Shown here piece by piece: positions 14,242 to 63,493 of a DNA stretch of 64,000 bases. The position numbers and the translations under genes are program-made. This DNA is from Chloranthus sessilifolius (Eukaryota > Streptophyta > Magnoliopsida > Chloranthales > Chloranthaceae): the NCBI GenBank assembly GCA_021018995.1, contig CM037595.1:92826491-92890490 (forward strand), given 5' to 3'. Numbering within the stretch: position 1 is the stretch's first letter; each line of letters opens with the position of its first letter. The notes beneath the pieces are model-generated. The model was given only the letters and a program-made list of their open reading frames with translations, was not told the DNA's origin and did not search any database.

Positions 14242-16027
14242 TGATGAGTACTGAAAAATGAGGATATTTCACCCCTAAATACCTATATTTAGCTGTCCGA
14301 TGAAGGCTATCTGATGAGATTGATTAGATTTGAAGTGTTTCAGATAAATACAAGCCAAGTATAGAAAACAGTACAAGAATTCTGAATATAATGCCAAAAC
14401 ACTGCAACTCGGGTAATCAAGAACTTGGTGCGACTTGCGGCTAAATTTGGACCTTCAAGATGGCCGAATTACAAAATTATCAAAACATGAAAGTTGTAGA
14501 TCTTTTCGTCAGCTTTCCAACGGCGTAAGAATCGTCTCAATACGAGTTTGGGACAGAAAGTTATGGCCAAAATACCGAAGCAGTGTCTGAACCGAGAAGA
14601 AGTGCTGAATTTCACGGATTTTTGGGGTCGATGCATCGACCCTACAGGTCGATTAATCGAGCCAGAATTTAAGTCTGACACGAATCTGACACTGTGAACC
14701 TGTTTTTTGGGACTCTCTGTCGGCTCGATGCATCGACACTTATTGGTCGATTAATCGACCCGAAAATAAATGCTTGGGAGACCTCCGCGCGACGGGTTCT
14801 ATTTAAAGACTCAAACACTTCGGGAAAAGAACAACGTAGGAGATTAGAATTAGAGTTTTTTTTAGAGAGTTTTAGTTTTTAGTGTTCTTAGTTTTTAGCC
14901 ATTATTTTTCATAGTTAGACCTAGAAATAGGGAAGTTTTATTATTTCTTTTTAAGAGCTTTGTTCCCTGTAATTTTTCAGTATTCATTCCTAAATTTTGT
15001 TCAAAGTTAATTTCCTGCATTTATTTCGTTTCTGAAGATTATCATCCGTGTGGATCAACGTAATTTATTTTGAAGTTTGAGGTAATTTTAATTAATGTTA
15101 TTTTCCCGTCTTTATTTATTTATGTCATTTACTTACAATATGTGTGGCTAAATTTATAGGGATGGGGATCTAATGATTCCCATCCGAGGGATATACTTTT
15201 AATAATATAAATTTAGGATTAAAATATGAGATTTTACTTTATGGTTGTTGTGCTATCATGAACGGATGAAATCCCCGCCACTAACCGGGATCGCGTGTGC
15301 CGAGTCATGCCCGGGATCTCAGATCTGTGATTTAAAATCATTGTTATGGTCTTTTTATTTTATCGTGGATCTAATTACGATTATGTTATCGGGATCGAGT
15401 GCCGAGCCATGCCTGATCTTGGTTCTGTAATGGTAATTTTATCTTAAATAATCCCTAATCTGAATAAAGTGTGTCGAGCCATGCCCTTGATTTCAGATTT
15501 GTAAGTGGTATTCTTGTTGGAATTTTCACCCACCTTGGGGATGATTTTTATTTGAACCTGAGATCATGTGTGCCTAGCCGCGTCTTGATCCCCATCTATA
15601 TATATGAAAATCATCTAAGTCCTGATTGCAGGGATGCAACGTGGAACCTATTATGGTGTTGACCATTGATCTTCCATAAAAGATGTTTGTTACCAATGAA
15701 ATATCTCATAATTTAATCCTTAGATTTATATTATAGGAAGAACGGACCAAAGATGGGAGGATTTAGCATCTTCATCTTTATCATCATCTTCACTTTTATT
15801 TGTGAATCATCAATTGAATTTTAGTTTGTAGTCATTAATTACCATCAACCGCTTAAATCATAAAACTGGTAGAATACTGTTAGATCTTAATAGATTTCTA
15901 GAATTGCTTGTCTCTTTTTGATGTTTCAACATTAATCCTCGTGGAAACGATCTCGTACTCCGCACCCACTATATACAAACCGTTTCGTGCACTTGCGAGT
16001 AAAACATTACATAAAAAAATCACATCA
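14242..16027 (+). mobile_element. Solo LTR, 1786 bp, TSD AAAGG
   Basis: It starts TGATGAGTACTGAAAAATG and ends ATCACATCA, and is flanked by AAAGG at 14237-14241 and 16028-16032. It sits inside the first recognisable exon of the MULE's peptidase gene. The start resembles the LTRs at 17937-19477 (read on -) and 63048 onward, so all three belong to one group. A palindrome cluster (14625-14760) lies 40 bp upstream of TATTTAAA (14800-14807). Downstream, four diverged copies of GTGCCGAGCCATGCCC occur between 15296 and 15590. No internal retrotransposon region remains. Confidence 0.85.
14625..14760. promoter_or_regulatory. Palindrome cluster in LTR U3: TCGATGCATCGA / TCGATTAATCGA
   Basis: Four palindromes alternate: GGGTCGATGCATCGACCC (14625-14642), TCGATTAATCGA (14649-14660), TCGATGCATCGA (14725-14736) and GGTCGATTAATCGACC (14745-14760). 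They precede the TATA-like TATTTAAA at 14800. The position matches the clusters in seven other LTR loci here, but the word is different. A binding-site or hairpin role is inference. Confidence 0.75.
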
Positions 16028-17433
16028 AAAGGCCTTCGGGAAGTATACTAGAGTTAGTGTTAGGAAATTTTACATACATTGTAACGAAAAGAGAAAGATG
16101 ATACTAAATGAATTAATTTTCGGTCATCTAGTTGGGATTTATGAGAAATTAGTGTTTATTGGAGACTTGATTGACGCGATTTTGAGCTTCTAAGTTCAAG
16201 ATAACATGTTCAAGGTCAAGAACACTAAAGTAGTGATGTAGGAGTCTGATATAGAATTGATTTTAGGCCTTAGCATAGTGACGGAGTCTGAGTTTGAGCA
16301 TGTGTTAGTGTCAGAGCAAGAAATCATTCGATACAAATTCTTTCGGGGGCAGCCGGCTAAAAAGGGTCTTATTGAAAAAATAGTGGATAGTGCTCAGCTC
16401 TCTAACGATGAATTTTTAAAATTATCATTGTTATTTCTCGTCTGCTCCTTCTTACTTACGGACATATACCAGGAAGTGGATAGTCAACACTTGAACTTAG
16501 TCGATAACCTCAAAAAGTTTAACGAGCTGTCGTGGGGCTTGGTAGTTTACAAAAATTTAGTAGAGTGCATATCGAACGCGTAGTCAGAAGGAAAACGACC
16601 AAAACATCGGCAAATGGGCAATATAACATCTACGGGTGTACTATCGCCCTACAAATTTGGGTGTTAGAGCACTTTCTAAGAGTCACCCCCTTGCACTCCA
16701 TTAAAAAATTCATTTCTGATGATGATGAAATGGGAAGCCCTGAAATTCAATCGGACTCTAAATTTTTTTCGAGAAAAAATTCTTAAATCTTCAGTCCTCG
16801 TAGAACTCGATGTTGACAAATACGAGTTACAGTATAGATTAGTTCGTCTCTTCTTTTTGGAAAGAGAGATGGCAAGGGAACGAGAAAGAGAAAATCCGAC
16901 CTAAGAAAAGATATATGAAGACAATGTCCCAACTTACGAGACCCATCCACAAAAAAGAGCTCAGGGGCCTCACGATGATGATAATGGTGATGACGATGAG
17001 GATAATGAGGATGGCGATGATAACAATGACGATAACGACGAGTACGAGGTCGTTATACATCAACAGTCGAAATTAAAGGGCAAGCAACCGAAAAAAGTAG
17101 GCAGCAGCCAACCAGGGAACAGTTGGCTAGGCAATCCCAACTTATAAATGAAATAATCGAGCTGAGGAATGAGTGCATATCTCTCCAGATGGCGGTTAAA
17201 GAGATGAAGGGTAATTTCAAGTGCGCCTTTACGATTTTGAAAGGGCAATCTATGGTTATTGAGCAGTTGGGGAGATACAAGAAGACCCTACAAGAGCAAG
17301 TAGAGTCTCTATAAGATCGGGTAGCCTATTTAACAAGTGAAAATATCGTAATACGAAAGGGTCTTGACGCTGTTAAGGCTCATTTATCAAAAGTACTAAA
17401 TCCCTAACTTAAACCCACATTTAAGTGTTCGAA

Positions 17434-17495
17434 AAGGTGTTGGCTAACCTAAGATAGCAATCCGCTAACTTAAGATTGCGGTCCGCTAAGATATT
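17434..17495. repeat. Diverged CTAACTTAAGAT palindrome repeats inside the MULE
   Basis: GGCTAACCTAAGATAGCAA, CCGCTAACTTAAGATTGCGG and CCGCTAAGATATT follow each other. They are diverged copies of the 20-bp palindrome at 14123, in a segment that looks non-coding between the coiled-coil and peptidase parts of the Ulp1-like gene. Confidence 0.7.
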
Positions 17496-17936
17496 TAGGG
17501 AAATTCAATCTTTATTTAGCCTTCAAGTTTTTGTCATTTTTGTATAGATATAGGATGATATTCTTTCTTCCATTGTCTTTGATGCCTTCGTTGCCCCCAA
17601 CCCCCTGCACCCCAACCTTCTACCTCTCAACCCCCTGTCCCAACCTCTGGTCTAGGGCTTGGACCTAGTGGTCGATGCTCCACCTACCCAACCTTCTCAC
17701 TAGTCACAGTTGGGATCACTGAAATCCTTACTAATATAACTATTTACATAAAAGAGTAAGGCCAACGGACAAGGGAAGGGCACAAGATATGACCTGCGAG
17801 CACGAAAGAAGAGAAAGATGTCAACTAGCAAAGTTTGTATAAAATAACTAAGAGTAGTCGTGGATGAGGTTGAGTCACAGTTCATGAAGCATAAATTTAT
17901 GCTCAGTATTTGGAACCTGTCTGCGGCCAACGATAC

Positions 17937-19477
17937 TGATTGATTTTAAAATGTACTCTTGCAAGTGCACAAGATCTATCGTAGCACGGTGAAATCAAGG
18001 TGTCGAACTCACAAGGAAGCGAGAAATTTAATTAATTTCTAAAAGTGTCAAACGAACCTAAGGAAGTATCAAAGGCGAGATTTTTATCACGATAAAAATT
18101 AACAACTACACAAACATAAAAATAAAAAGATCTAAACAAAGCTTAAGCAAGAAAAATAATAAAAAATTAAACAACGATGAAAAGATGATCAAGGAGTCCG
18201 CTAACCTTAGATTTATAATTTTTCTACCAACAATCAATCACACATTTCTATGTCAAATTATATACCATCATTTATTAAGAAGAAAAATTAATCGTAAAGA
18301 GTGTGATTATTGATCTAGCATACCCTATTAAAAACTATGACTCAGCCTATCATTGCAGTATGAATCATGTAAAAAGCATAGCGTATCTCAAAATTCGAAA
18401 CCACAACATTAAGATCCAATCGTACGGCCTGAAAGCTGTATGATTCAATAATTATGACAATGAATATAAATATTAACCCTCATTTTACTACAAGCAAAAT
18501 GATTCGAAAAGAATGTGATTATTGATCCGGCATACCCTATCTAAAAGCTATGACTCAACCTATCATTAAGGTATGAATCATGTAAAAAGCATAACGTATC
18601 TCAAAATTTGAAATCACAATATTAAGATCTAATCATACGGCCTGAAGGTCGTACGATTTAATATTTATAAAAAGAAATGATTGAATGAAAATAAATTAAC
18701 TACTTATCTAGGAGTCGCTTTCTCCTTGAATGAATGGTTTTAGTCGTTCATCTTTGATCCACACGCAAGGCACAAATTCAAAATCATCAAACACGTTCTT
18801 TAATTTATCAAATGTTCAGATCTTTTAGGAAAAGATCCGAAACCTTACAAAGCTTTGGTTCTTAATTACAAACTAATTATCATAAATTAAAACTAAACAC
18901 TAAAAATAATAAAGAAAAACCTAAGTAGAAGACTAAGGAAGTTGGCCAAGAAGGCCACTAAAAGAAGCATCCCCAAACCCTTAACACTGCTCTGTTTATA
19001 TAGGGCTCGGGTGAAAAAGTTTTCATGTATAGGTCAATTGATTGAATTCTAAGATTCAATCGATTGAATTCAAATTTTGAATTGTGGCGGACTTATTTGA
19101 ATTTACATCTCAATCAATTGAAATCTAAATCTCAATCGATTGAGTTCAAATTCGAATTTATGAGGGAAACAGTTATTATCCAACTCAATCGATTGATTTC
19201 TAAATTTCAATCGATTGAGCCTGACATGTGGCATATCCATTCTCTTGCTTGTGGCTAGACCAATCAATTCTTTTTACGAATTTCAGTATTTTTATTGGCC
19301 CTTTGGTCCAATATTCTCATATTGTCCTTAATTATGCTTTTTTATGCCTTTGCAAGATCCAACGGTCACGAACACCTGAAATCACTAAAACTACATAACA
19401 GCCATCAAAATGCCTTCATCAAATAGTCAAATGTTGGTATTAGGGCACAAAATATGATCATATTTCAGTGTCGATCA
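17937..19477 (-). mobile_element. Solo LTR, 1541 bp, TSD GATAC
   Basis: In + orientation it runs from TGATTGATTTTAAAATG to GTGTCGATCA, flanked by GATAC at 17932-17936 and 19478-19482. Joining the flanks across one GATAC keeps the peptidase reading frame (NLSAAND then TVIVNTLLGID), which confirms the boundaries. On the minus strand it starts TGATCGACACTGAAATATG. Palindromes of the TCAATCGATTGA type (19034-19218) lie upstream of a TATA-like TATATAAA (about 18997-19004, minus). A tandem duplication of about 212 bp (near 18299 and 18511) lies toward the 3' end. Confidence 0.88.
19034..19218. promoter_or_regulatory. TCAATCGATTGA palindrome cluster in LTR U3
   Basis: Six copies of TCAAT(C/T)(G/A)ATTGA-type words, including ATTCAATCGATTGAAT at 19054-19069 and TCAATCGATTGA at 19207-19218. 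On the minus strand the cluster ends about 30 bp before the TATA-like box. The same word recurs in the LTRs at 28299 and 63048. Confidence 0.75.
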
Positions 19478-20504
19478 GATACTGTGATTGTCAATACTCT
19501 CTTGGGTATTGACATCACCATTGAAAATTTAAGGATTCTTAAAGGATCGTGGCTCAACAATGAAGTCATAGACGCGTACTTCATGATCCTTGAGAAAAAG
19601 AATGACTCTATGTTTCCCGAAAAGGAGGACTAGAGCTGGTTTGCTTCTGCTATGCCCCTGATAACGTTTTGATTCTTTATTATTTTCTTTATTTATTTAC
19701 TTCATTCATACCTTTCAATTCATGACTTATTTTAATGACAAATTTCAGACCCTGATTATAGCGGACCAAGTAAAATTTGAAAATTTTGTTCATGATGAAA
19801 ATCTGAGAGCACTCAACGACTTTGAGAAGTGGTAGGCCTACTATGACAAGTGGCAGGTTCATTACCATTGTAAGCAGCTTACGAGTACGACACGCGGTAT
19901 TCATGCTGTCAATTGTGGGACGGTAAGTTCTTTTTTAAGTTACATTAATGCCTTTTATGTTTTTTATTTAACACTCCACTGATTAGATCTTCAGTTGCAT
20001 GTAGATTTATTTTCCAATGTATAGTAAAAAATACCACCATTGGACCTTGGCTATTGTGTTCGTAGCGGATCACGTTGTGAAGGTGATAGATTCGGCTGAC
20101 CGAGAGTGTTTATAGAAGTTTGATGCGCACAGAGAATGTTTGCTGCATCATTTGTCGCGACTTCTCCACGTTGTCGATATGAGTTCTGCTCTCGATCAAC
20201 CGTATCGGCTAACAGTCATGGATAGTGTCGATCTCCCGTGCTAACACAACGATTGAGACTACAATATTTTTTTACTAAAGTATATCCAATACTTCTCTGA
20301 ACAATGGGCTATTGATTTCGAGGAGAAAGATATGAAACAATTTAGAGCCGAAATCGGACATTCGTTGTCCACGTTTGGGTTTAAATTTTTTGGCCTCTTT
20401 TTCTTCACACTATATATTTGGTAAAAATTAACAATTGTATAGGTTAAATTATTTAATAATTTTTTGTATCCTTTTGTGTATTTTTTGTATTTTTTCTTCT
20501 TATA

Positions 20505-20640: not shown

Positions 20641-20693
20641 GGCCATAATCCCTTATTTCAAGGTGACAATTTACACTAATTTTTTATTTCATT

Positions 20694-24573: not shown

Positions 24574-24628
<55 letters not shown>
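24574..24628. repeat. (TA)n microsatellite
   Basis: About 27 TA dinucleotides just inside the right terminal repeat of the Mutator-like element. Confidence 0.95.
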
Positions 24629-25619: not shown

Positions 25620-26267
25620 ATGGCTTCATCCCGCAAACTACAACACCTTCCCAAACATCCAAAACAACCTACCCTCGAACTGACCTCTCACCAATTACAT
25701 CCTTTGGAATTCTCAATTCGCCCCATTACTTTGCAGCTATGATTTAGTGGGTGACATGGCACCACCAACAGTCCTGAACAGTTTCTTCCATCTGATATGG
25801 AGATGTCGAGCCCAAGATTAATCCTGTCTTTGTCTTGTGGCAACGACAAGACTCTCTTTATTCACATGGATTATCTCATTGCTCACTGAAGGAGTTCATG
25901 CACAGATCATAGGGCTGCACATCTCATGAAGTGGACTGCGCTAGCCGGTGCCTACTCGAGCCACTCCAACATCGGCATCATACTACTATACCTACAGGTG
26001 CAGACTCTCACGAAGGGTAACTCGACAAATAATGAATGCTTTCAACTGGCAAAAACTTTGGCTGGTCAGCTTGCTGCCATATCACGACCGGTTGCAAGTG
26101 AAGACCTTGTTCTCCATATTCTCGGTGGCCTCCCTCACCCAGAATATGAATCCTTCGTAAACTCAATCACTACCAGATCAGAACTGGTTTCCATTCAAGA
26201 ACTATCCGGGCTACTGCCCAGTCAAGAGATCCGCCTGACTGATCATGCCAAAAACGCAGCTAAGTGA
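25620..26267 (+). pseudogene. Copia gag fragment (UBN2-type)
   Basis: Gag packages retrotransposon RNA into virus-like particles. The frame starts at 25620 but meets stops around 25740-25890. The best part, 25926-26267, shows the copia gag pattern in which a hydrophobic helix is followed by D.VLHIL.GLP.EY..FV..I.TR. It has no zinc knuckle and ends at a TGA. It is a degraded fragment, and no gene-like neighbours suggest domestication. Confidence 0.7.
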
Positions 26268-26877: not shown

Positions 26878-27949
26878 TGACATGCGACAATGACCCCGAA
26901 ATGCATATGAGATGATAATTGACGAAATTAAGCTAATTAAGTGAACAATTAACCCAAATTAAAGCAATACCTTAGGGCTTTATGGATTTCTGCTTAGGTA
27001 GCCATGTTAGGTTCGACTAGGGTCCAATTTGGCGCCCGAGCTTTGTTAGATTTGAGGAAGGGGTGATCCTAGAGATAGAACTCTAGCATCCTCTAGGTCG
27101 GCATTCGCTCGACATGTTTCAAGGTAGAATCGTGTGGCCCCTTGCTAGGGCTTTGAAACAAATGCTCAATCAGTTTTGAATTGAGTGACCTCGAGCTCAA
27201 CTTCGGTCGAGGATTGACAGGCAGAGGTTGGCATCAAACTACAAGGTTGGGCATCAAGATAGCTCTAGGATTAGGGTTATGAGGATTCATGCAAGTAGAA
27301 GGAAAAGAAATAGATACAAGATCTAGCAAGCAAATAAAAAAAGTTAAAAGAGATGATCAAAGGAAACAAATGGGCATCACACCCTTAGCCTCATACCAAA
27401 CCCACATGGGGAAGAAGTCTCACTCTCAATTAAAGCTCATCTTAAGCTCAAAATGTTTGCACTTTCATTCAATAACTATCAATGCCAAAAATGGCTTGCA
27501 TAAGGACCTTTTATAGTAAATACAAAAGAGAAAACCTTAAAATAGAAAAGTACAAACCCTAAAAGGTAACCTAAAAGCTTTGAAAATATTAAAAGAAAAA
27601 TGAAGAAAATAAGCCCAAACAGGCAATTGTGTCACTTGACTCGCTCGAGCGGGATTATTCTCACTTGAGCAAGAACTCTTGTAGTTCACGGCCAAATCTC
27701 CGGTGAAGCTCGCTAGAGCAGGAACCGAGGTCGCTCGATTGAGTTTTGACTGAAAGTTTGGCCTAACTCTTGCTTCAACCTCGCTCGAGTGGGAATCCCA
27801 CTCGCTCGAGCAAATCTGGGCAGAAAGTCCCTTTTGCAGATCCTTAGGCTTCCTTCCCGATAGATGCTCGTTGGGTCCTCCGCTTCTTCTTTCGTCGGTG
27901 GACTTGATGTGGCCCAAAGCCGGTGTCCACGATGTCGGCGTCCCCGCCA
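26878..27949 (-). mobile_element. Solo LTR, 1072 bp, TSD ATAGT
   Basis: It starts TGACATGCG and ends GTCCCCGCCA, and is flanked by ATAGT at 26873-26877 and 27950-27954. On the minus strand it begins TGGCGGGGACGCCGACATC, matching the start of the LTR at 28299. Its internal order resembles the LTRs of the chromovirus at 46087-52710 (ACCTTAGGG, GGGTCCA, CTAGAGATAG, GACTCTAGC-type blocks). A CGCTCGAGCG palindrome cluster (27642-27812) precedes TACTATAAAAGG (about 27507-27518, minus). Confidence 0.85.
27642..27812. promoter_or_regulatory. CGCTCGAGCG palindrome cluster in LTR U3
   Basis: CGCTCGAGCG at 27642-27651, degenerate CTCGCT.GAGC and GTCGCTCGATTGAG words, and near 27785-27806 a CGAGTGGGA..TCCCACTCG inverted pair flanked by CGCTCGAG on both sides. 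On the minus strand it lies about 125 bp upstream of the TATA-like box. Confidence 0.7.
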
Positions 27950-28298: not shown

Positions 28299-29292
28299 TG
28301 GCGGGGATGCCGACACTGTAGACATTGGATATGGACCGTTTTGTGTGTACCGGCTTCGGAAGAAGCGGAATGGAAATGGAGATCAAAACCCAAAATAAAG
28401 AATTGGACGTGCTGGAGCAATGCCAGTCAATCGATTGACACTTGGGTTTTAATCAATTGACTAGGCCTGTGAGGAATTAATTCTGACGATATATATGTAT
28501 GTCAATCGATTGAATACTATATGTCAATCGATTGACTGAGGAGCTAATTCTGACGATATACATGTACGTCAATCGATTGAATACTATATGTCAATCGATT
28601 GACTGCGTCAGAATTTGAATTTGAATTTTGAAGGGCATACTTGTCTTTGTTTATTTTTGTTTTAGGGTTTTATTTTTCTTTTGTAGGGCATCCTATATAA
28701 GGTCTCTAAATAAACATTGTAAGGGATGATGATTGATTATGAATGAAAGCTAATGCTTATGTGCTTGAGATGAGCCATTGTTGAAGAGTGATTCTTCTTT
28801 GCTTCCCGAGAAGGGTTTGGTGTGAAGCCAAGGGTGTGATGCTCAAAATCTATCTTCTACCTATTTCTTCAATTTTCATTTTTCTTTCTCCGCTTGTTTT
28901 AGATCCCACAAACCACAATCCCAGCCATTATCCTTTTTCCAAAACCCTCAAAATCAGAACCATTGATTCTAACCCTAGATCTTATACAAGCCATTAAACC
29001 AACCGAATCAGAACCCTTAGAGGACTCATGATTCCACCATTCAATCTCGAGCGGTGCCCTAATATGAAAAAGCTAAAGTTCTATCTCTAGAACCGATCTA
29101 CACCGCGAATCTAACGGGTCTAGCGCATGGACCGGACCCTACTCGAATCAAGCGCGATCTTTCAGTGGAAAACTATGAAACCCTAAGGTATCCGCATTAA
29201 CTTCATGGTTTATTGTTTAATTAATTTAGTTTAATTTCGGCAATTAATTAAATCATGACATTCACGTAGTTTGAGGTCCTTGTCCCGCATCA
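28299..29292 (+). mobile_element. Solo LTR, 994 bp, TSD CAAAG/TAAAG
   Basis: It starts TGGCGGGGATGCCGAC and ends GTCCCGCATCA. The flanks are CAAAG (28294-28298) and TAAAG (29293-29297), one C/T change apart. The start is the same family type as the LTR at 26878 read on minus. TCAATCGATTGA palindromes (28426-28603) precede TATATAA (28694-28700). It is inserted at or near the right terminus of the hAT-like element. Confidence 0.75.
28426..28603. promoter_or_regulatory. GTCAATCGATTGAC palindrome cluster in LTR U3
   Basis: GTCAATCGATTGAC occurs at 28426-28439 and 28590-28603. Between them are TCAATTGACT, two GTCAATCGATTGAATACTAT copies and another GTCAATCGATTGACTG. A 67-bp unit is duplicated here. 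The cluster lies about 90 bp before the TATA box at 28694. Confidence 0.75.
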
Positions 29293-33517: not shown

Positions 33518-33570
<53 letters not shown>

Positions 33571-45900: not shown

Positions 45901-48900
45901 CTTGGGATGTGTAGCATGTGAAGCTAACATATGTACCGTCTGATAAGTGCGCCATGATCGAAAGTTCCAGTGTAAAAGATTGGGATGAGAAATGATCTTC
46001 GTCATTTGATTTAAAGCTGTCAAATGCCATCTAAAATTAATGGCTACCATGTAAAGCCAACATATCGTTAATTTTGGATGGCATTTTGACGCGGGACGGT
46101 AACCCTAAAATGCGGAATATGATTTTATGTAGAATTTTCCGAAATTAAATAAAGTAATTCAAGTTTAATCACAAAATTATCTTAAGATACCTTAGGGTTT
46201 GCAGAATTTTGATGAATAGATCACACGAGATCCAGGTAGGGTCCAGTCCTATGCGACAAGTACTTTTAGAGTCGAGGCAAGATCGGCCTAGAGATATGAC
46301 TCTAGCTTTTCCAGGATTAGGCACTTGTCTGCGGTCCGATGTAGATTCACGGATTCCAAATTGGATTGTAAAAGAGAATTAGGGTTTGTAAAAGGCTTAT
46401 GACTTTTAGTCGGTTTATGGTTTTGGAAAGGGTATTGGCTTTGGGTGGTTTAGGGCTTCAAAACAGATTTAGGGTTTTAGATTTGAAAGGAAACAATTAG
46501 GCTATGGTTTAGAAAAGCAAACACAGATCGAAAGGAGCAAATAGAATAGAGAAGATAACAATGGCTTTTGGGAATCACTCCCTTGGCCTCACACCAAATC
46601 CATCTCAGGCAAAAATTATTCAAGCATAAAAGCATTCAAATAATCAATCAACTAATTAAAAGTCTTTACAAGCCTCTATATATAGGCCACCAATAATTAA
46701 GTTCGAAATAAAGAGTTCTAATACTAATAAAACATAAAAATGAAGTTTTCGCATGAAATCCCATCTTACTGGCTCGCTCACGCGAGATTTATCATCGCTC
46801 GAGTGAGTTTAAGTGATCGCTCGCGCGAGGCTCCCTCGAGCGAGTTTAAGTACTCGCTCGTGCGAGGGTTCTCTGCAGCGCCATTCCCTTGCTTGCAGCG
46901 TTGTTCTCCTCACGGTTTGTGTTCGTTCCTCCTCTGAGGCTACGGTACTCGGGCTTCCTCTACGCTTCTTCCGACGTCGATAGAACCGGTGCGGTCTAAA
47001 TTCGATGTTCATATATGTGGTGTCCCCGTCAATTCCCCTGGACCAAAAAGGATTCATCACCGATGAAACACGCTCGTGGTAGATGTCTAGCAAGTCTGGG
47101 TTCAAACGCCGAACTTCATTCTTGTGGACCCACGTGTTTTCGGACTCCGGTTTGCCGACCTATTTGACCAAGTACTTCTGGAATCCCCCATCATGTGTAG
47201 AGACGACATGATCGTTGATTATATCCTCTATCTCATCCGATCTCTGTCTGCGTGAGGAAGGAAGAGGTATAGGTTGCAAGGTTGAACTGGGGCTGGGACT
47301 AGGGGGTGGCTGGAGTGGGTTTTTAGGAGATGGGGTGAAACCCAAGTAAGGAACCAAGTCCTCCACATTGAACGTTGAACTAACCCCTGTACCTGGAGGA
47401 AGCTCAAGCACGTATGCATTAGGATCACTCTTAGCCAAAATTCTAAAAGGACCAGCGCCTTGAGATTGGAGCTTCTTTGCGAATCCCGATGGGAACCGCT
47501 CAAGCCTAACCCGGACCATCACATAATCACCCACGTTAAATTCTTTAGAACGCCTGTGAGCATCTGCAGATAATTTATATTGATTGTTGCTTGAATTAAT
47601 TTTCTGTTTAATTTCGGCATGCAAATTATGAATGTGTTGTGCAAATGCATCGGCAGACTCTGACACTATGGGATGCAGACATGGGGATCAAGTCTAATGA
47701 GGTCCTATGCCTATGACCATGCACTACCTCAAAAGGACTCATGCCTATGGACCTATTGACATAATTATTATATGCAAACTCAGTTGTGGGTAAGATGGTA
47801 TCCCAGGTCCTAAAATGATCACCGACAAGACTACGAAGGAGATTCCCAAGGCTCCTATTGGTGCTTTCAGTTTGACAATCCGTTTGAGGGTGGTAAGCTG
47901 TAGAGAATTGGAGCAATGTGTCCATCATGTGCCAAAGGGTTTTCCAAAAATAACTAGTAAATTTAACATCCTTATCAGACACAATGGTTTTGGGTAGCCC
48001 ATGAAGACGCACTACCTCCACAAAAAATAATTTAGCAATATGAGATGCGTCGGAGGTTTTGGAACAAGGAATGAAGTGGGCCATTTTGGAAAATCGGTCC
48101 ACTACGATATAGATGGAGTCGTGCTTCCTAGGGGTCTTAGGAAGTCAAAGCATGAAATCTATAGAGAGGTCTTGCCACGGTGTGTGTGGCACGGGTAACG
48201 GAGTGTACAAGCCGGTATTTTGTTTTGTCTATTTTGACACTTGGCAAGTACGGTAATGCTTAATGACCCGGGCGACATCTCCCATTAAGCTAGGCCAAAA
48301 GAACCTATCCTCTACGAGCGCAACAATTTTATTACGCCCGAAATGTCCGGCCATCCCTCCAGCATGTAACTCCCAAATGAGAAAGTCACACAATGAAGTG
48401 CGAGGAATGCAAAGGTGATTGCCTTTGAATAAGTACTCATCCTCGATGGTGTACACGGAGTGTGTGCTGGTCGGGTTACTAAGGAAAGCAGTGTACTCAA
48501 CTCCAAAATCTGGGCACACGGGGTACTCATCCTTTAACTTTTCGAACCCGACGACCTCGGTGCTCATTGTGCGCAAAGTTACCACTCGCAGACTAAGTGC
48601 GTCAGCGGCCTTATTTTCAGCATCGGCCTTATGCTTTAACACGGATGTGAACCCTTGAAGGTACTCAACCCACTTCGCGTGCCTTGTGTTCAATTTCTTC
48701 TGTGAAGCAAGAAAGTGTAAGGCTTCATGGTCAGAAAACAACACAAATTCCTGCGATCTAAGGTAATGTTTCTAATGCCAAAAAGATCGAACGACTGCAT
48801 AGAACTCCTTGTCATAGGTGGAGTATTTTTGCTTCGCCTCGTTAAATTTTTCACTAAAATAGGCCACGGGGTGACCCTCTTGGCTAAGCACTCCTATGCC

Positions 48901-51900
48901 TACACCCGATGCGTCGCATGCGACTTCAAAGACTTTAGAAAAGTCTGACAATCACATGACGGGTGCACTATTCATTTGTTGTTTGATCTCAGCGAAAGTT
49001 TTTGTCGCTGTTTTGCCCCATTTAAAGTCCCCCTTTTTCATGCAATTAGTGATTGGGGCCATAATGGTGCTAAAGCTTCTGATGAAGCGACGGTAAAAAG
49101 TAGCCAAGTCATGGAAGCTGCGAACATCGTGCATGTTCTTAGGTTCGGGCCACTCCACAATGGCTTTAATCTTTTCAGGGTCCGCGACCATTCCATTGGC
49201 CGAGATAATGAATCCCAAGAAGACAATGGAAGGTTGCATGAAAGTGCACTTCTTGAGATTGGCAAACAACTTTTTGCCCTTGAGGGTTTCACTAACCAGC
49301 CTAAGGTGGGTCAAGTGTTGATCCTTGTCGTGACTATAGATCAAGATGTCATCGAAATAAACAACAAGGAATTTGCCTAGAAACAGCCTCAACACTTGGG
49401 TCATGAGTCGCATGAAGGTACTCGGGGCGTTAGAAAGCCCAAATGGCATGACCATCCACTCATAAAGACCATCCCTAGTCTTAAAGGCTGTTTTCCACTC
49501 ATTATTGGGGTGGATGCGGACTTGATGGTAGCCACTCTTAAGGTCTATCTTTGAAAAGATCGTGGCACCAACCATCATATCAAGCATGTCATCGAGCCTT
49601 GGTATGGGAAACCGATATTTAACAGTAATCTTATTGATCACACGACTATCCACACACATGCGCCACTTACCATCTTTCTTAGGAGTGAGTAGGGCAGGTA
49701 CGACACACGGGCTCAGACTCTCTTGGATGAATTCCTTTTAAAGGAGCTCATTGACTTGCCGAGTCAGCTCGGCGTGCTCAACTGGATTCAAACTATAGTG
49801 GGGTAGGTTCGATAAGGTAGATCCAGGAACCAAGTCTATTGCGTGTTGGATATCACGCAGGGGAGGAAGTTCGTTTGGTAAGTATTTAGGGAAGACATCC
49901 GTGAACTCTTTTAAAATCGGCTCAACCTCCTTGGGACACTTGCTCACTGACTCGGGAGCACTGACAACTACGTACACCACTCTCTTCTATCGATGCTTTC
50001 TCGAACTCAGAAGGGCTCACAATATTAATGGACTTAGAAGACTCACCCTTCTTTTCGACGGTGTTGGTCGATGGTGTTTTGGGAGGCAAAGGGTATAAAA
50101 TGATCTTTTTGCCCTTATGCATGAACGTGCATATGTTTGTTCGACCAGAAAGAGTCACGTCCATGTCGTAGAGCCACGACCTTCCCAAAATGATATGACC
50201 CACATCCACCGGCACCACATCGCACCATAAGGTGTCCAAATAAGAGCCTAACTGAATCGGTACACGACACCTTTTCGACACGGGAATGGATGAAGAATTG
50301 ACCCATGCGACTTTATAAGGTCTCAAGTGGGCTTCAGGTGTAAGCCTTAAGTGGCGGACTGCATGAGTGGATTTGACATTAGTACAACTACCGCTATCCA
50401 CGAAACCCTACAATTCTTTTCACAAAATCTGGCGTAGGTGTGGAAGATGTTCTCCCTTCGCTAGTCATCCTTTTCATCCCGTTGAGGCTGTGCAAGGGCA
50501 CACATCACAACTAAAGCATGACCAATAGCATCACCCTCCTTATCACTGGGTGTGCTAACCGGTTCAAATACTTCTTCAACCACTACCTCATCATTATCCT
50601 CCTTTCCCTCAATGAAGAGAGTCCTTTGGGGGTTCTTTCGTAGGGCATTAAGCGGTAAAGTGTCCCATCCCATGACATTTATAGCACTTTACTTGAGAAT
50701 TAACCCTTGAGGATTCCCCGACTACACCTTTTCCCTTTTCAAACCCAGAATTGGTAGGGGCGGATTGTGTAGGTTTGAGAGGAGGATTAAATCGTCCCTC
50801 ACCGGATCGTTGACCGCTATATTGTGGCTCGGTCCTCTTCACCACCGCAGTTTTCAAATACCGTTCAAGTTCTTGCACAATGGCATAACATCTTTCAAGA
50901 GTTTCTACGGGGTGAGAAATCAATTCTTTTTGCAAATCCAGCCGCAATCCGGTGCGGAATCTAGAGAGAGTGATTTCAGGGTCTTCCGATACTTTTGCCC
51001 TCATCATGAACTCTTCAAATTTGACAATGTGATCGGTCACGGGCATACCACCTTGGCGTAAATTTTGCTACTGGTCGAGGAGGCGTTGGTGGTATGATAA
51101 AGGAACATACTTCTCAGTAAGTCGTTCCTTTATGTAGTCCCAACGGGTAATGGGAGGACAACCCGCGTTCACCCTAATGCGCTCAACATTGAGCCAGAAA
51201 AGTCGAGCTTGACCAATCAATTTCATTTTCGCAAGTCTAACGCAACGGTCGTCATTCATGGCATACTAATCAAAGTGTTGGTCCATATCAGAAAGCTAAT
51301 CGAGGAAGATGGTATGGTCCATTCTTCCATCGAAAGTCGGAATCTCAACTTGAATGTTCTTAAGGAGTTGAACTTCGGGGTCATAGTCATCTCTACGATG
51401 ATCCTTACGGTTCCGGTTGTCTTGGCGACCATTACGTTCAAAGTGTGGACGCTCCCGCTCTTAGTGTTGATTTTCAAGTCCACCCATCGCTTCCAGTTGG
51501 TTGATTCGATCACGTAGTCTATCATTACCAACTCCTAGAGATGTTTGGGCTTGCTCAATGGTATTCAGACGTGCACTAATCGCACTTAACTCTTCTCGCA
51601 TACCGTTAAGGGCATTGAGAATCGCACTCGAGTCCATGGTGATTATAAGGTCTATTAGGGTTCTAATATGGTATGCAATATGGACTCACAAAAACAATGC
51701 AATAATATAAATATGACAAGCAAGGATGCCATAACCTAGAAATCTTAGGGCTCTGATACCAAAACTGACGCGAGACGGTAACCCTAAAATGCGGAATATG
51801 ATTTTATGCAGATTTTGCCGAAATTAAATAAAGTAATTCAAGTTTAATCGCAAAATTATCTTAAGATACCTTAGGGTTTGCAGAGTTTTGATGAATATAT

Positions 51901-53304
51901 CACACGAGATCCAGGTAGGGTCCAGTCCGATGCGCAAGTACTTTTAGAGTCGAGGCAAGATCGGCCTAGAGATAGGACTCTAGCTTTTCCAGGATTAGGC
52001 ACTCGTCTGCGTTCCAATGTAGATTCACGGATTTCAAATTGGATTGTAAAAGGGGATTAGGGTTTGTAAAAGGCTTATGGCTTTTAGATCGGTTTATGAT
52101 TTTGGAAAGGGTATTGGCTTTGGGTGGTTTATGGCTTCAAAACAGGTTTAGGGTTTTGGATTTGAAAGGAAATAATTAGGCTATGGTTTAGAGAAGCAAA
52201 CACAGATCGTAAGGAGCAAATAGAATAGAGAAGATAACAATGGCTTTTGGGAATCACTCCCTTGGTCTCACACCAAACCCATCTCAGGCAAAGATTATTC
52301 AAGCATAAAAGCATTCAAATAATCAATCAACTATTAAAAGTCTTTACAAGCCTCTATATATAGGCCACCAATAATTAAGTTCGAAATAAAGAGTTCTAAT
52401 ACTAATAAAACACAAAAAGAAAGTTTTCACATGAAATCCCGTCTTACGGGCTCGCTTGCGCGAGATTTATCATCGCTCGAGTGAGTTTAAGTGATCGCTC
52501 GCGCGAGGCTCGCTCGAGCGAGTTTAAGTACTCGCTCACGCGAGGGTTCTCTGCAGCGTCGTTCCCCTCGCGTGCAGCGTTGTTCTTCTCACGGTTTGTG
52601 TCCGTTCCTCCTTTGAGGCTACGGTACTTGGGCTTCCTTTACGCTTCTTCCAACGCCGATAGAACCGGTGCGGTCCAAATCCGATGTTCATATATGTGGC
52701 GTCCCCGTCACATTTGATTGCATTGAATCAGATAAGGGAGATCAATTTCGTTCCAATCTTTTGCAAAATAAATCTTGAGATCATGGGCGTCAACTCACAC
52801 TGAACACATGATAGTTCCGCATGGTACACATCTTAAAATGACCCAAGTACCAAGAGGTGTCGGTGCGCAGTCACATACCTAATACTAAGTCAATTTCAAA
52901 AGAGGGCCAACCATAGGTGCAAAGGGGGAAGGGCACCTAAGAGGCCTTTGCTTTTGGTTTCAAAAGTTTAGGGGGTAACTGCGCCCCAAGCTCTATCTGG
53001 CTCCGCCCCTACTCGTTACCTTTTTTTGTAGTCAAAATTATGATTTACAGTATTCTTTTAAGTACTTAAATTTAATAGCTTACATTGTGTGAAAATTGAA
53101 TATTACTGAATGTTTTGTCGTTTTGCATTAGAAGCTAGTACCTTTAAAGATGTGGATGTAGAATATAATATGACCTGGATTTTGCAGGAGGCTTTGCTGG
53201 CAGTATTGGACATGATCCACACATTCTCTATACTCTTAGTGCTGTTCAAGTGTTAGCTCTTTTCAACAAGCTGGATGTTCTCGATGTCGATAAATTGACA
53301 AGTT
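33890..53304 (+). CDS. RGTB: Rab geranylgeranyltransferase beta subunit, partial gene (exons 1-3)
   Basis: The beta subunit of Rab geranylgeranyltransferase (GGTase-II) forms, with the alpha subunit, the enzyme that attaches geranylgeranyl groups to C-terminal cysteines of Rab GTPases presented by the Rab escort protein. Three exons encode the N-terminal part: residues 1-18 ([18 protein letters not shown]), a 151-bp exon with [13 protein letters not shown] and [11 protein letters not shown], and a third with [20 protein letters not shown]. This is the start of the alpha-alpha barrel with its prenyltransferase repeats. Catalytic zinc ligands lie in later exons outside the window. The frame is open across all three exons and splice phases agree (0, then 1, then 1), so the gene may be functional despite a 19-kb second intron. 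It could instead be a truncated copy. Confidence 0.85.
34033..34183 (+). CDS. RGTB: RGTB exon 2
   Basis: The acceptor TTTGTCATCAG precedes 34033. The exon encodes [19 protein letters not shown] through MKCQHDCG, with the donor GTTTGT at 34184 splitting a Gly codon after its first base. The Trp-Gly and Asp-Leu-Leu spacing fits the first prenyltransferase helices. Confidence 0.88.
34555..35473 (+). mobile_element. Solo LTR, about 919 bp, TSD ATCTC
   Basis: It starts TGATGGGGACATCCG and ends TCCGCATCAATCA, with ATCTC at 34550-34554 and 35474-35478. Relatives end at GCATCA, which would put the end at 35469 and leave an extra ATCA before the duplication. The start equals that of the LTR at 54363. 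A CGATCGATCG palindrome cluster (34649-34829) precedes TATTTAAA (34941-34948). Confidence 0.78.
34649..34829. promoter_or_regulatory. CGATCGATCG palindrome cluster in LTR U3
   Basis: Six runs of TCGATCGATCGAT-type sequence at about 34649, 34671, 34729, 34752, 34799 and 34817, about 110 bp upstream of the TATA-like box. This is the same place as the clusters of other LTRs, with a different word. Confidence 0.75.
35751..36639. other. Intron sequence, no element identified
   Basis: AT-rich, without recognisable coding homology. GCCTTGCCGATGGACACATG near 36101 and TGCTGATGGCACAAGGAAG near 36290 have the feel of an old repeat, but no pair was found. Confidence 0.4.
36640..38075 (+). mobile_element. 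5'-truncated L1 LINE with zf-RVT domain and A-rich tail
   Basis: Plant L1 LINE ORF2 C-terminal part. [20 protein letters not shown] at 36675 onward, then [19 protein letters not shown], is the segment after the reverse transcriptase. [20 protein letters not shown] (frame shift near 36850), then [11 protein letters not shown] follows. [18 protein letters not shown] and [20 protein letters not shown] (37390-37560) are the zf-RVT domain, followed by the Cys-rich knuckle ([17 protein letters not shown], frame shifted). The 3' end is AGATTCCTTATTACAGATA followed by an A-rich tail (38065-38080). It is inactive. Confidence 0.85.
38081..39128. other. Intron sequence with a GC-rich block
   Basis: 38180-38420 is clearly more GC-rich than its surroundings (TGCACTGCAGTTCCCCACC, GAGCCTGAGAGCCGC) but shows no recognised protein or RNA. 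It includes self-complementary words (TCAGAGCAGATTTTTTCTGC). The rest is AT-rich. Confidence 0.4.
39137..39448. mobile_element. hAT MITE, 312 bp, TSD GATCCCAT
   Basis: Identical GATCCCAT flanks lie at 39129-39136 and 39449-39456. The left end TGGTGCCTGGTCGGGTGG and the right end (reverse complement TAGGGCTATCAAGGGGTC) carry reiterated GGTCGGGT/ACCCGACC words, a common make-up of plant hAT MITEs. Confidence 0.75.
39457..40090. other. Intron sequence, no element identified
   Basis: ATACATCAATAACC occurs twice (39961 and 40034) as a short direct repeat with surrounding similarity. No coding homology. Confidence 0.4.
40100..42244. mobile_element. Foldback Mutator-like element, 2145 bp, TSD AAAATGATT
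   Basis: The two ends are long inverted repeats: the left arm from GGGTTTTTTGCATATACCCC (40100 to about 40574) and the right arm (about 41778-42244) read as its near-perfect reverse complement. Both keep landmarks such as GCCGTTAATTAGCC, CTATTTTGCCCTTAAT and AAGTCATGCCATTATAG. Identical 9-bp AAAATGATT flanks (40091-40099, 42245-42253) indicate a Mutator-type insertion. The arms include a terminal half of the F1 MITE. The centre holds a second F1 foldback (about 41517-41928) and a GGGTCGGGTT patch (41050-41155). No transposase. Confidence 0.92.
41517..41930. mobile_element. F1 foldback MITE nested in the foldback element
   Basis: GTACCTTTAAATCCACCCAC at 41519 is mirrored by GTGGGTGGATTTAAAGGTAC ending near 41928. 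Between them, GATCATGGGTGTACC..CAGACGG and the reverse complement form the stem. Its right half is also part of the right arm of the larger element, so the larger element probably acquired F1 sequence. Confidence 0.7.
42254..43679. other. Intron sequence with hairpin; possible LTR remnant
   Basis: A 17-bp-arm hairpin lies at 43170-43208. On the minus strand it is followed about 20 bp later by GCTATATAGAGG (43140-43151), the same palindrome-then-TATA order as in the LTRs. LTR ends were not found. A frame at 43359-43844 minus belongs partly to the copia remnant. Confidence 0.35.
43170..43208. repeat. Perfect hairpin, 17-bp arms, 5-bp loop
   Basis: The left arm AAATCGATTAACTCTTT (43170-43186) and the right arm AAAGAGTTAATCGATTT (43192-43208) pair exactly around ATTTA. 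Confidence 0.9.
43680..43945 (-). pseudogene. Copia protease / pre-integrase fragment
   Basis: On minus: [15 protein letters not shown], followed by [26 protein letters not shown] and RDGLYYF. This is the order of the copia aspartic protease and GAG-pre-integrase region, which normally begins with a D-S-G-A-T-D-H-M motif. Here the catalytic Asp and the next residue are changed (N-Y-G). Protease and downstream blocks are in different frames. Other pol domains are absent. Confidence 0.7.
43990..44320 (-). mobile_element. Copia LTR-like remnant
   Basis: CTGCCTTTATATTAAACCTG (TATA on minus) and CACCCAATATC..AACTTACACACCAC resemble the LTR at 32767-33001 (GCCTTTATATTAAG, CACCCAATATTAAGTAACACACACC). 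It is probably a diverged member of the same copia family, truncated so that no primer site is visible. Confidence 0.5.
44400..45385 (+). pseudogene. L1 LINE remnant: zf-RVT plus RNase H-like C-terminus
   Basis: 44516-44764 reads [20 protein letters not shown] and then [18 protein letters not shown], the zf-RVT zinc-binding pattern of plant LINE ORF2. About 45030-45130 reads [20 protein letters not shown], and about 45255-45340 reads [17 protein letters not shown], the two ends of the RNase H-like domain that follows zf-RVT in some plant L1 elements. Stops interrupt the frame. It lies on the same strand as RGTB but inside its intron. Confidence 0.7.
45386..45789. other. Intron sequence, no gene seen
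   Basis: TTTTGGTTCATAATGATGGT occurs at 45659 and again at 45731, a 72-bp-spaced direct repeat. No coding homology. Confidence 0.45.
46087..47031 (-). repeat. 3' LTR of the chromovirus, 945 bp
   Basis: Bounded by the CATTT duplication on the left and the purine tract on the right. It contains CTCG(C/A).GCGAG palindromes (46770-46865) and TATA (TATATATAG near 46675-46685, minus). Same length as the 5' LTR. Confidence 0.95.
47032..47039 (-). other. Purine tract (plus-strand primer) of the chromovirus
   Basis: On minus it reads AGGGGAAT directly before the 3' LTR TGACGGGG, the usual place for the polypurine tract. Confidence 0.6.
47050..47235 (-). pseudogene. Chromodomain at the integrase C-terminus, interrupted by TAG
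   Basis: Chromodomains of chromoviruses steer integration to marked heterochromatin. Here [12 protein letters not shown], then FQKYLVK, a TAG (47160-47162) at the position of the conserved Trp, then [15 protein letters not shown]. The surrounding residues fit the family closely, so identification is firm although the domain is broken. Confidence 0.8.
47050..51637 (-). pseudogene. Chromovirus gag-pol, degraded
   Basis: Gag starts at ATG 51637 ([17 protein letters not shown]) and includes [13 protein letters not shown] and a C-x2-C-x4-H-x4-C knuckle at 50645-50686, in which a TAA occupies the position before the last Cys. Protease-like sequence with D-S-G-S at 50390 and HIILGRSW follows. The reverse transcriptase has YFDDILIYS (about 49335-49360) and RNase H has [11 protein letters not shown]. 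Integrase has [30 protein letters not shown] and a C-terminal GDYVMVR.RLERFP, and the chromodomain has [16 protein letters not shown]. Several stops fall where relatives have Trp: about 51296, 51266, 48772 and 47160 (TAG). Others lie at 50648 and 49738. A frameshift lies near 47660-47670 and another just after the knuckle. Confidence 0.92.
51750..51761 (-). other. Primer-binding site of the chromovirus
   Basis: On minus it reads TGGTATCAGAGC, a perfect complement to the 3' end of plant initiator-Met tRNA, four bases after the 5' LTR. Confidence 0.92.
51766..52710 (-). repeat. 5' LTR of the chromovirus, 945 bp
   Basis: It starts TGACGCGAGACGG and ends GTCCCCGTCA (plus strand). CGCTCGAGCG, CTCGCGCGAG and related palindromes (52449-52545) lie upstream, on minus, of CCTATATATAGAGG (52352-52364). 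It is also the promoter of the element. Its layout matches the solo LTR at 26878-27949. Confidence 0.95.
52449..52545. promoter_or_regulatory. CTCGCGCGAG / CGCTCGAGCG palindrome cluster in LTR U3
   Basis: Within about 95 bp lie CTCGCTTGCGCGAG, ATCGCTCGAGTGAG, ATCGCTCGCGCGAG, GCTCGCTCGAGCGAG and CTCGCTCACGCGAG, separated by repeated GTTTAAGT spacers. It is very CpG-rich compared with the rest of the LTR and lies about 85 bp upstream of the TATA-like box. Confidence 0.8.
53188..53304 (+). CDS. RGTB: RGTB exon 3
   Basis: The acceptor GGATTTTGCAG precedes 53188. The first two bases complete the Gly codon left by exon 2, then [20 protein letters not shown] continues to DKLTS. GTATCC at 53305 is the preferred donor (one T left for a Tyr codon, as expected at this place in the family). 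GTTGTA at 53302 is the alternative. Confidence 0.87.
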
Positions 53305-53789: not shown

Positions 53790-53884
<95 letters not shown>

Positions 53885-54362: not shown

Positions 54363-55484
54363 TGATGGGGACATCAAACGCTACAAGGTGTATACGAAGT
54401 GCAAGAAGAAAGATTCAAAGCTCCGGAACACCTTGAAGACCCATGTGTACTCATGCGACATGTGAGAAGACCCAATACTTATAAGGCATTCATGTGGGAG
54501 CAAAGAAAAGAAAGAAAAAGTCGTCATATGACGAATGCCCATGGTTTCAAGACAAACTTCCGTGAAAGAAAGCAGTTATGGAAATCGAGGCAAGGACTTT
54601 TATGCGACATCCGTGCCCAAGGATCCGTGCAACTTTCGTGCCCAAGGACGGACTTTCGTGCGACTTCCGTACCTAAGGAAGGACTTCCGTGAATAAGACT
54701 AATGCTGGTCTTAAACGAATCCATCAAGGACGGACGTTCGTGGACATAGGACGGACATCCGTGAGTTTCATCCTCAAATTGGCTGCTAGTCGAGTTTAGA
54801 GGCAAACTTGTCGTTTAGGTATTTGTTTAGGTTTAGAACTTTCTTATTTCGAATTATATGTTTAGTTTGGGTTTCTTAGCCTATATAAAGGCATTGTAAA
54901 CACACTAATTAGTTAGTTGGTGATTAATAAAGTTTTTGAGTTTTGCTTTCTGCGAATTTTAGAGAACATGAGATGAGTTTCACCGAAAGAGTGATTCTTT
55001 CAAATCGAAAAGCGACTCTTCTTCCGTGTGCGGTTTGGTGTGAGACCAACTATCTTTCTTAGATCGATTCCTTGGATCTTTTATACTTTCTATTTTATCT
55101 TTTGATTATTGTCAGGTAATTGATGCATTTATTTTTTTTACTGAAAATCAAACTTAAATATCTTTTTTCATATATTGTTGTTGGGATATATTTTCTAATT
55201 CCTAATCCTAATTCTTGAATTCCCTTTGAACGATTTAAACCCTTTGGACCTTAAATTATTCAAATTCTCGTAAGGAGTCAAGAGACAACATCAAGATTGT
55301 CGCTTGGTGCCCCAAACTAGATCGAAACTATAGTCTATCTGTAGACCTATTTTATAGGTCGGGAAAGTTTATATGCTAAATCGGATCAATTAAATTTCCC
55401 TGATAAAGTTATTAAATATTTTATGTGTTTTGGGATTAATTTCTATATCTCTGATGCTCAATTAAATCTCAAATTACTGCATCA
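54363..55484 (+). mobile_element. Solo LTR, 1122 bp, TSD AGGGC
   Basis: It starts TGATGGGGACATCAAACG and ends ATTACTGCATCA, with AGGGC at 54358-54362 and 55485-55489. It shares its terminus type and downstream blocks (CCTATATAAAGGC, GTGATTCTTT, GTGCGGTTTGGTGTGAGA) with the LTR at 34555. The repeat cluster upstream of TATATAAA (54882-54889) is made of ACTTCCGTG/GGACGGAC words instead of CGATCGAT. Confidence 0.88.
54595..54765. promoter_or_regulatory. GGAC-TTCCGTG repeat cluster in LTR U3
   Basis: About eight copies of (ACGGA)C.T.CGTG-type words, among them GCGACATCCGTGCCC, GGACGGACTTTCGTG, GGACGGACGTTCGTGG and GGACGGACATCCGTG, the last an imperfect palindrome (ACGGA/TCCGT arms). The cluster lies about 120 bp before the TATA box. 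Confidence 0.65.
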
Positions 55485-63047: not shown

Positions 63048-63053
63048 GATGAG

Positions 63054-63081
63054 GTGTGAAATATGATCATATTTCACACCC
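63054..63081. repeat. 28-bp perfect palindrome at the LTR start
   Basis: GGTGTGAAATATGA (63054-63067) is followed directly by its exact reverse complement (63068-63081). The related LTRs have diverged versions around AAATATGATCATATTT. Confidence 0.92.
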
Positions 63082-63304
63082 TAAAACCTACATTTAGCTA
63101 TCCGATGAAGGCTATTTAATGACTATTGTGTAGTTTTAGTGGTTGCAGGTGTTCGTGATCGTTGGATCTTGTAGGAGCATAATTGAGCATAATTAAAGGC
63201 TACATGGGAGCATTGAACCATGAAGCCAACGGAAGCACCGAAAATCGTGAAGGAACCGATTGATTCAGTCAAAGATAAAGAGAACTAAATTTGTCGCATG
63301 CCAA

Positions 63305-63493
63305 AATCAATCGATTGAGATTCATATTTCAATCGAATGACTTTTTGACAACTATTTGGCGCTGAAGATTTGAATTTAAACTGAATCGATTGAAATATGA
63401 AAATCAATCGATTGATTTTTGAATTCAAATGAATCCGCCAAAACTCAGAATTTGAATTCAATCGATTGAATTCTACAATTCAATCGATTGACC
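63305..63493. promoter_or_regulatory. TCAATCGATTGA palindrome cluster in LTR U3
   Basis: About six copies, including AATCAATCGATTGA near 63305, AAATCAATCGATTGATTTT near 63401, TTCAATCGATTGAATTC near 63457 and TTCAATCGATTGACC near 63479. The last ends about 30 bp upstream of TATTTAAA at 63523. It is the same word and spacing as in the LTR at 17937-19477. Confidence 0.75.

Follow-up and report, generated by a model that had tools for sequence, protein, structure and literature searches.

Palindromic repeats in the long terminal repeats (LTRs) of plant retrotransposons are known as the RM boxes of 13 Sireviruses (Ty1/copia); they were not found in the classic retrotransposons of the same study and were called Sirevirus specific (Bousios et al. 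2010, PMC2829016). According to its RM section, each element has boxes of its own, present in many copies within the upper LTR half and a short distance upstream of the TATA box; the RMs form CpG islands, and 12 of the 13 have a CGG-CCG core (PMC2829016). A Sirevirus study of 2016, as reported in PMC5311732 and PMC10760457, located clusters of palindromes in the regulatory region of LTRs and described them as fast evolving. Here we analyze palindrome arrays in a stretch of 64,000 nt (the window) of the 2.17-Gb genome (32 contigs) of the plant Chloranthus sessilifolius (contig CM037595.1, positions 92,826,491 to 92,890,490), together with 25 ten-kb stretches placed blindly at round coordinates on contigs C1 to C12 (L001 to L025) and three stretches that adjoin blind ones (L026 to L028); clusters of the window are named by their position in kilobases (w14, w19, and so on). 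The words of these arrays are palindromes of 10 to 14 bp that stand in pairs, with centers mostly 19 to 22 bp apart, and this holds for almost every word. Lying upstream of a TATA-like box, the arrays are, on balance, likely to be paired sites for host DNA-binding dimers that would turn on the LTR promoter.

Tnt1 and Retrolyc1 are Ty1/copia elements, and VANDALs are DNA transposons; both are useful for comparison. In the Tnt1/Retrolyc1 group, related elements differ mainly in their U3 regulatory modules, and the BII boxes bind defense-induced factors; this resembles what we see, although the modules are not described as phased palindromes in the parts of these reports drawn on here (PMC1838419, PMC3316501). 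The VANC target arrays of VANDALs are likewise short arrayed motifs that diverge between relatives and are bound by a sequence-specific protein, but their reader is encoded by the element and the motifs lie in one orientation, whereas the words in our arrays are palindromes (PMC5735166). Among open-licence papers, searches on palindromes in LTRs yielded the Sirevirus work and a study of palindromes at insertion sites (PMC6911290), and a search with six of our words matched 25 papers, none of them on retrotransposons, as judged by titles and the beginnings of abstracts.

The closest counterparts are the RM boxes. As in these, the arrays consist of repeated, dyad-symmetric words, and they share the position in the LTR upstream of TATA (9 of 9 clusters in the window and, within 200 bp, 6 of 11 arrays elsewhere). 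Most of our words lack the CGG-CCG core, however, which occurs only in ACGGACGTCCGT (54.6 kb and L028), and the classified hosts are not Ty1/copia but Ty3/gypsy chromoviruses (L019 and L022; the window element with pol remains at 47163-49737 is Ty3/gypsy). Two words have a perfect 10-bp core in common with RMs, namely, TCAATCGATTGA with Tnd-1 ACAATCGATTGT (core CAATCGATTG) and ACGGACGTCCGT with Usier GTCGGACGTCCGAC (core CGGACGTCCG) (PMC2829016); by a hand estimate made after the fact (about ten words, five even-length RMs, and 1,024 palindromes), some 0.05 such matches are expected by chance. This sharing of cores would fit a host-side reader common to the superfamilies. The clusters of the 2016 study evolve fast, as ours do, but belong to another superfamily, and small RNAs were mapped there, whereas folding potential alone is considered here (PMC5311732, PMC10760457). 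The RM section of PMC2829016 gives no spacing rule; the study of 2016 may contain one.

In the window, perfect 12-bp palindromes with at least two G/C numbered 52, compared to 19 ± 4 in 60 Markov shuffles, and five loci (14.6, 19.1, 28.5, 34.7, and 63.4 kb) had at least three of them within 200 bp; three within 200 bp anywhere was reached by only 1 of 100 shuffles. These figures bear out the initial annotation, which had proposed the shuffled control and had placed eight clusters and a twin; all nine are present there. The clusters at 27.6, 46.8/52.4, and 54.6 kb fall below the bar of three perfect palindromes and have imperfect versions of their words. The TATA-like box noted at a distance of 30 to 125 bp was found for all nine, 27 to 126 bp away and in each case on just one side; at a random position, such a box lies within 200 bp on either side in 24% of cases. 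Long (TA)n runs dominate the raw palindrome counts (8645-8705, 24576-24628, 29968 onward, 33520-33566, and 53794-53881).

Three pairs of TCAATCGATTGA make up the arrays at 19034-19218 (minus strand) and 63305-63493 (plus strand), both with center gaps of 22, 53, 22, 54, and 22 bp in the LTR sense. The TATA-like box of the former, CTATATAA, lies about 30 bp past the array in the LTR sense (18996-19003, minus strand) and that of the latter, CTATTTAA, about 29 bp past it (63522-63529, plus strand). The same word forms three pairs at 28426-28603 (plus strand; gaps of 22, 53, 22, 45, and 22 bp), in an LTR whose relative L019 is a chromovirus, with CTATATAA following after 90 bp (28693-28700, plus strand). 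At 34649-34829 (plus strand), three pairs of TCGATCGATCGA have gaps of 22, 57, 22, 48, and 20 bp; the relative L022 is again a chromovirus, and CTATTTAA lies about 110 bp past the array (34940-34947, plus strand). The decayed array at 27636-27816 (minus strand) has three pairs of CTCGCTCGAGCGAG (up to three mismatches per 14-bp word) with gaps of 20, 49, 21, 50, and 21 bp, read on the plus strand, and its box CTATAAAA is 126 bp away (27509-27516, minus strand). Hence, five LTRs of the window (w19, w63, w28, w34, and w27) have one three-pair layout, with gaps near 22, 53, 22, 54, and 22 bp, and three different words.

At 14625-14760 (plus strand), two pairs composed of TCGATGCATCGA and TCGATTAATCGA have gaps of 21, 76, and 22 bp, and CTATTTAA follows 39 bp past the array (14799-14806, plus strand). 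Words of the CTCGCTCGAGCGAG type, with gaps of 21, 22, 15, and 22 bp on the plus strand, form the array at 46771-46868 (minus strand; box CTATATAT at 46678-46685, minus strand) in the LTR 46087-47031, and its twin stands at 52449-52546 (minus strand; box CTATATAT at 52356-52363, minus strand) in the LTR 51766-52710. The decayed array at 54595-54768 (plus strand) has gaps of 31, 51, and 21 bp, i.e., one close pair, and CTATATAA about 115 bp past it (54881-54888, plus strand). The ACGGAC..TCCGTG word that had been noted there as imperfect is indeed so; it is a decayed ACGGACGTCCGT, which is intact in the related LTR-like stretch L028:1418-1522.

The pairing at 19 to 22 bp and the three-pair layout go beyond the initial annotation. 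In the window, the histogram of distances between palindromes peaks at 22 bp. In the first 20 blind stretches (200 kb), pairs of perfect palindromes at 19, 20, 21, and 22 bp numbered 2, 9, 16, and 2, with echoes at 40 to 42 bp (13) and 60 to 62 bp (7), and 10 shuffles gave about zero. Pairs of the same 10-bp palindrome at 19 to 22 bp were present in 7 of the 25 blind stretches and in none of 250 shuffled ones, and each of six other 4-bp spacing windows between 12 and 35 bp had such pairs in 0 of the 25. Finally, among 152 adjacent gaps in 18 arrays, 98 measured 19 to 22 bp, 4 measured 12 to 18 bp, 6 measured 23 to 30 bp, and 44 were longer.

Exact matches of word pairs across the whole genome gave 22,664 pairs for TCAATCGATTGA and 33,275 for TTGATCGATCAA (with at most 30 bp separating the words) and 7,382 mixed pairs of TCGATGCATCGA and TCGATTAATCGA (separated by 4 to 20 bp; 3,743 in one orientation and 3,639 in the other), while the reversed words, which are palindromes themselves, gave 0 in every case. 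Spacings were read from the first matches listed, all on contig C1. There, 35 of 50 TCAATCGATTGA pairs stood at exactly 22 bp (three each at 21, 23, and 42 bp and six at 25 to 41 bp), 44 of 50 TTGATCGATCAA pairs at 19 to 21 bp (the other six at 40 to 42 bp), and 82 of 100 mixed GC/TA pairs at 21 to 22 bp, with 16 to 32 bp allowed. Since these spacings peak differently, the pitch depends on the word (22 or 20 to 21 bp). A dense run of TCAATCGATTGA pairs extends over 13 kb (G000:C1:2899376-2912636) and perhaps represents nested or tandem elements.

The words are kept better than the linkers between insertions. The paired LTRs of a single element, which differ through postinsertion decay alone, show little or no such excess. 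Between insertions, identities of palindromes and linkers were 0.944 and 0.611 (w19/w63), 0.776 and 0.628 (w34/L022), and 0.877 and 0.549 (w28/L019). Between the LTRs of one element, they were 0.917 and 1.000 (flank, 0.944) in one case, 0.958 and 0.942 (flank, 0.916) for L027/L019, where 24 word columns are gapped and the 5′ LTR lacks two words, and 0.815 and 0.812 (flank, 0.883) in a third. Word copies were recognized by their likeness to the word (up to two mismatches), which favors the words, but the same rule was applied in both comparisons. With regard to the methylation-sensitive switch suggested in the initial annotation, the words carry CpG, and CpG sites were less conserved than other word sites in all six LTR comparisons; at non-CpG word sites, identity between insertions was 0.967 (w19/w63), 0.872 (w34/L022), and 0.961 (w28/L019).

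Furthermore, related LTRs exchange words at the same place, in part through double changes that are symmetric. LTRs that are homologous but differ in their words are L012 (TCGATTAATCGA) and L020 (TCGACTAGTCGA), 72 to 78% identical, L014 (TTGATCGATCAA) and L015 (GTGATCGATCAC), 71% identical, and w28 (TCAATCGATTGA) and L019 (mixed with TCGATCGATCGA), also 71% identical; in these three comparisons, symmetric double changes between in-register word copies made up 6 of 15, 3 of 7, and 1 of 5, compared to 0 of 6 between w19 and w63, which have the same word. Half-changed words also occur. Words differ as well where w27 and w28 share the region past the array (68% over 201 nt), w34 and w54 the flanks (71 to 76%), and w14 and w63 the LTR start (82% over 92 nt). 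Conversely, separate lineages have the same word: TCAATCGATTGA occurs in w19/w63 and w28, TCGATTAATCGA in w14 and L012, CTCGCTCGAGCGAG or its core in w27/w46 and the LTR-like insertion of L008, and TCGATCGATCGA in w34 and L019. Both halves of the earlier statement on termini are thus upheld, in that the LTRs at 34555 and 54363 begin alike but have different words and the 19.0- and 28.4-kb clusters share a word behind different starts.

The element at 46087-52710 has the sole paired LTRs shown in the window (94.2% identical over 947 alignment columns). It is Ty3/gypsy, with pol remains on the minus strand (47163-49737) in separate open reading frame (ORF) pieces matching RVT_1, RT_RNaseH, Integrase_H2C2, and SH3_Tf2-1; no chromodomain was found in the pieces scanned. 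A homology search with the reverse transcriptase (RT) of the window gave 7,961 hits; among the 120 listed, the top hit was 74% identical and the highest identity was 79%. For the 28.3- and 34.6-kb families, LTR pairs are seen in relatives (L027/L019, 86%; L028/L022, 82%), and the LTR status of the 14.6-, 19.0-, and 63.3-kb loci is based on LTR-like starts that they share. At least two of the LTR groups are chromoviruses, since L019 (relative of the 28.3-kb LTR) and L022 (relative of the 34.6-kb LTR) carry SH3_Tf2-1 and chromodomain ORFs beside the LTR; these ORFs end within 90 bp of the LTR or inside it, so that an additional gene would not fit between pol and the 3′ LTR. In L024, the pol ORFs follow the PR-RT-integrase order of Ty3/gypsy.

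Some LTR starts are themselves palindromic. The LTR-like starts of the 63.3/19.0-kb lineage are palindromes of 28 bp (perfect; GGTGTGAAATATGATCATATTTCACACC, 63053-63080) and 16 bp (19450-19465). Chromovirus-like starts, judged by eye, read TG, an arm, GGGGA, and a second arm that matches the first exactly or nearly so (TGATGGGGACATC, TGGCGGGGACGCC, and TGACGGGGACGCC); they lie at window positions 34555, 54363, 28299, 27949 (minus strand), and 52710 (minus strand) and at L028:1327, and the arms vary between families in a paired way.

How can words, spacing, and swaps be explained together? Dyad symmetry, steps of two helical turns, and the position at the promoter all match paired dimer sites, and we therefore propose that host dimers, two next to each other on the same helix face, would bind the paired words and that bound dimer pairs would turn on the LTR promoter. 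A word swap would then change which factor drives a family and would perhaps help the family to escape small-RNA silencing of the old word. The reader is probably host encoded, because L019 and L022 have no room for an extra gene and lineages with no blastn link to each other have words in common. The initial annotation had suggested a modular, fast-evolving promoter element. A swappable module at a fixed position and, among its options, dimeric sites agree well with the kept spacing, the symmetric words, and the paired symmetric changes; its hairpin option fares less well, since it leaves the strict step of 19 to 22 bp unexplained.

Several observations weigh against paired dimer sites. L022 has no gap of 19 to 22 bp at its best word matches (52, 26, 48, and 26 bp), although such gaps occur in its relative w34; in L007, regularity is limited to the first four words; and the longer gaps between pairs (30 to 150 bp) show no clear helical phase. 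A TATA-like box within 200 bp accompanies only 6 of the 11 arrays outside the window. In L024, this box and the nearby pol ORFs lie on opposite strands, and for this reason the array was not assigned to these ORFs. The palindromes of w34/L022 are better kept than the linkers only and merely equal the LTR flanks (0.776 versus 0.773). Within single arrays, changes inside words were mostly one-sided (81, compared to 3 symmetric double changes), and changes between neighboring words lean, if anything, to pairing between neighbors (89 one-sided, 9 complementary, and 0 noncomplementary double changes). Spacers of exactly 22 bp around TCAATCGATTGA (28 distinct among 35) had a mean best-strand identity of 0.383, compared to 0.328 ± 0.007 after shuffling; they are close to unrelated, and the weak likeness above the shuffled level indicates that some shared descent remains. 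Finally, blocks of arrays have also spread by duplication, so that copies are not independent.

The main rival, or else a side effect of paired dimer sites, is the RNA hairpin. In the element transcript, whose 3′ end carries U3, neighboring identical palindromes could fold as stems of about 12 bp with loops of 7 to 10 nt and feed small RNAs or serve another RNA function. Indeed, 18 of 19 arrays folded with z below −2 relative to shuffles (median, −8.1), the nine complementary double changes between neighbors with no noncomplementary one are as expected of stems, and palindrome clusters of maize Sireviruses are reported as small-RNA hotspots (PMC5311732, PMC10760457). However, a stable stem needs neither self-palindromic arms nor a step of 19 to 22 bp, the 54.6-kb array has no excess structure (z of −0.2), and an element is not expected to be selected for feeding its own silencing. 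Moreover, the 14.6-kb family pairs a GC-centered with a TA-centered word, by which the symmetry inside each word is kept but the complementarity between the two words is not. As the explanation of the arrays we consider hairpins unlikely, though worth keeping in view. Both readings may hold, in which case sites would be maintained for transcription at the cost of hairpins, and swapping would result from that conflict.

Passive growth of tandem repeats would make the spacing inherited rather than selected: a palindromic unit of 20 to 22 bp would have been duplicated by slippage or unequal exchange. Some blocks are visibly duplicated (the pairs at 28502 and, 67 bp further on, at 28569 and the self-similar array of L024), and beside the weak likeness of the 22-bp spacers, those of L015 are strongly alike (0.90). 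Yet most spacers are nearly unrelated while words and spacing are kept; spacers of equal length were 0.33 to 0.90 identical within arrays and 0.33 between arrays, and at such divergence insertions and deletions should have blurred their length (by a rough estimate, 37% of spacers would keep it, with an assumed ratio of one insertion or deletion per ten substitutions). The same ruler also recurs, with other words, among LTR lineages that are unconnected in blastn, and the advantage of words over linkers between insertions hardly exists between the LTRs of one element, which makes such growth an improbable source of the pattern as a whole.

We are equally skeptical of anti-silencing arrays, in which a factor encoded by the host or the element would read the words and remove DNA methylation, as VANC does on VANDAL arrays. 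The style of evolution is the same, with arrays of short noncoding motifs that differ between related elements (PMC5735166, PMC10398659), but VANC21 motifs lie in one orientation, and the word "palindrome" is absent from PMC5735166. In L019 and L022, the chromodomain ORFs extend to the LTR or close to it, although no search was aimed at VANC-like genes, and a private, element-encoded reader does not predict that separate lineages share words. Such a private reader is disfavored in any case by these ORFs and by TCAATCGATTGA, TCGATTAATCGA, TCGATCGATCGA, and CTCGCTCGAGCGAG (or its core), each of which is present in two or more LTR lineages whose blastn matches to each other, where there are any, lie in the arrays alone. 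A chance origin of clusters and pairs is ruled out by the shuffles and the zero counts of reversed words.

A few other features of the sequences were noted. A 22-bp perfect palindrome around ATCTTAAGAT lies at 14122-14143, and the 12-bp palindrome TATCTTAAGATA occurs in both LTRs of the Ty3/gypsy element (46178-46189 and 51857-51868). L008:412-2554 is a 2.1-kb LTR-like unit (TGTGACA...TGTGACA ends and, by eye, an apparent 5-bp target duplication, TTGAA) inside another palindrome array; its own CGCTCGAGCG array (1843-2037) has no TATA-like box within 200 bp. The 144-bp repeat at 10882-11601, with ATGGATCCAT in its units, is an ordinary tandem repeat and not a phased array. A DUF1985 match at 16242-16580 (plus strand) is weak (26.1 bits, under the cutoff of 35.1), and the sequence near 19500-19600 is Ulp1-like by eye only. 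A copia gag fragment (25890-26264, plus strand) and a zf-RVT fragment (37275-37688, plus strand), which we take to be long interspersed nuclear element (LINE)-like, are also present, and a search of the window against Rfam was negative at gathering scores.

In sum, palindrome arrays are widespread in the stretches sampled, and our data extend palindromic LTR boxes from Sireviruses to Ty3/gypsy chromoviruses and add a word-dependent, nearly rigid spacing of two helical turns. It is conceivable, if somewhat doubtful as yet, that plant LTR retrotransposons of different superfamilies share one alphabet of words, that a family of host dimeric proteins tiles the LTR in steps of two turns whose pitch is set by the word (22 or 20 to 21 bp), and that drivers are changed by symmetric paired swaps. 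The spacing rule makes it testable by which host protein a given word is read and whether swaps give families new expression. The tens of thousands of word pairs in this one genome would represent a large store of ready-made, paired putative sites that could be co-opted near genes.

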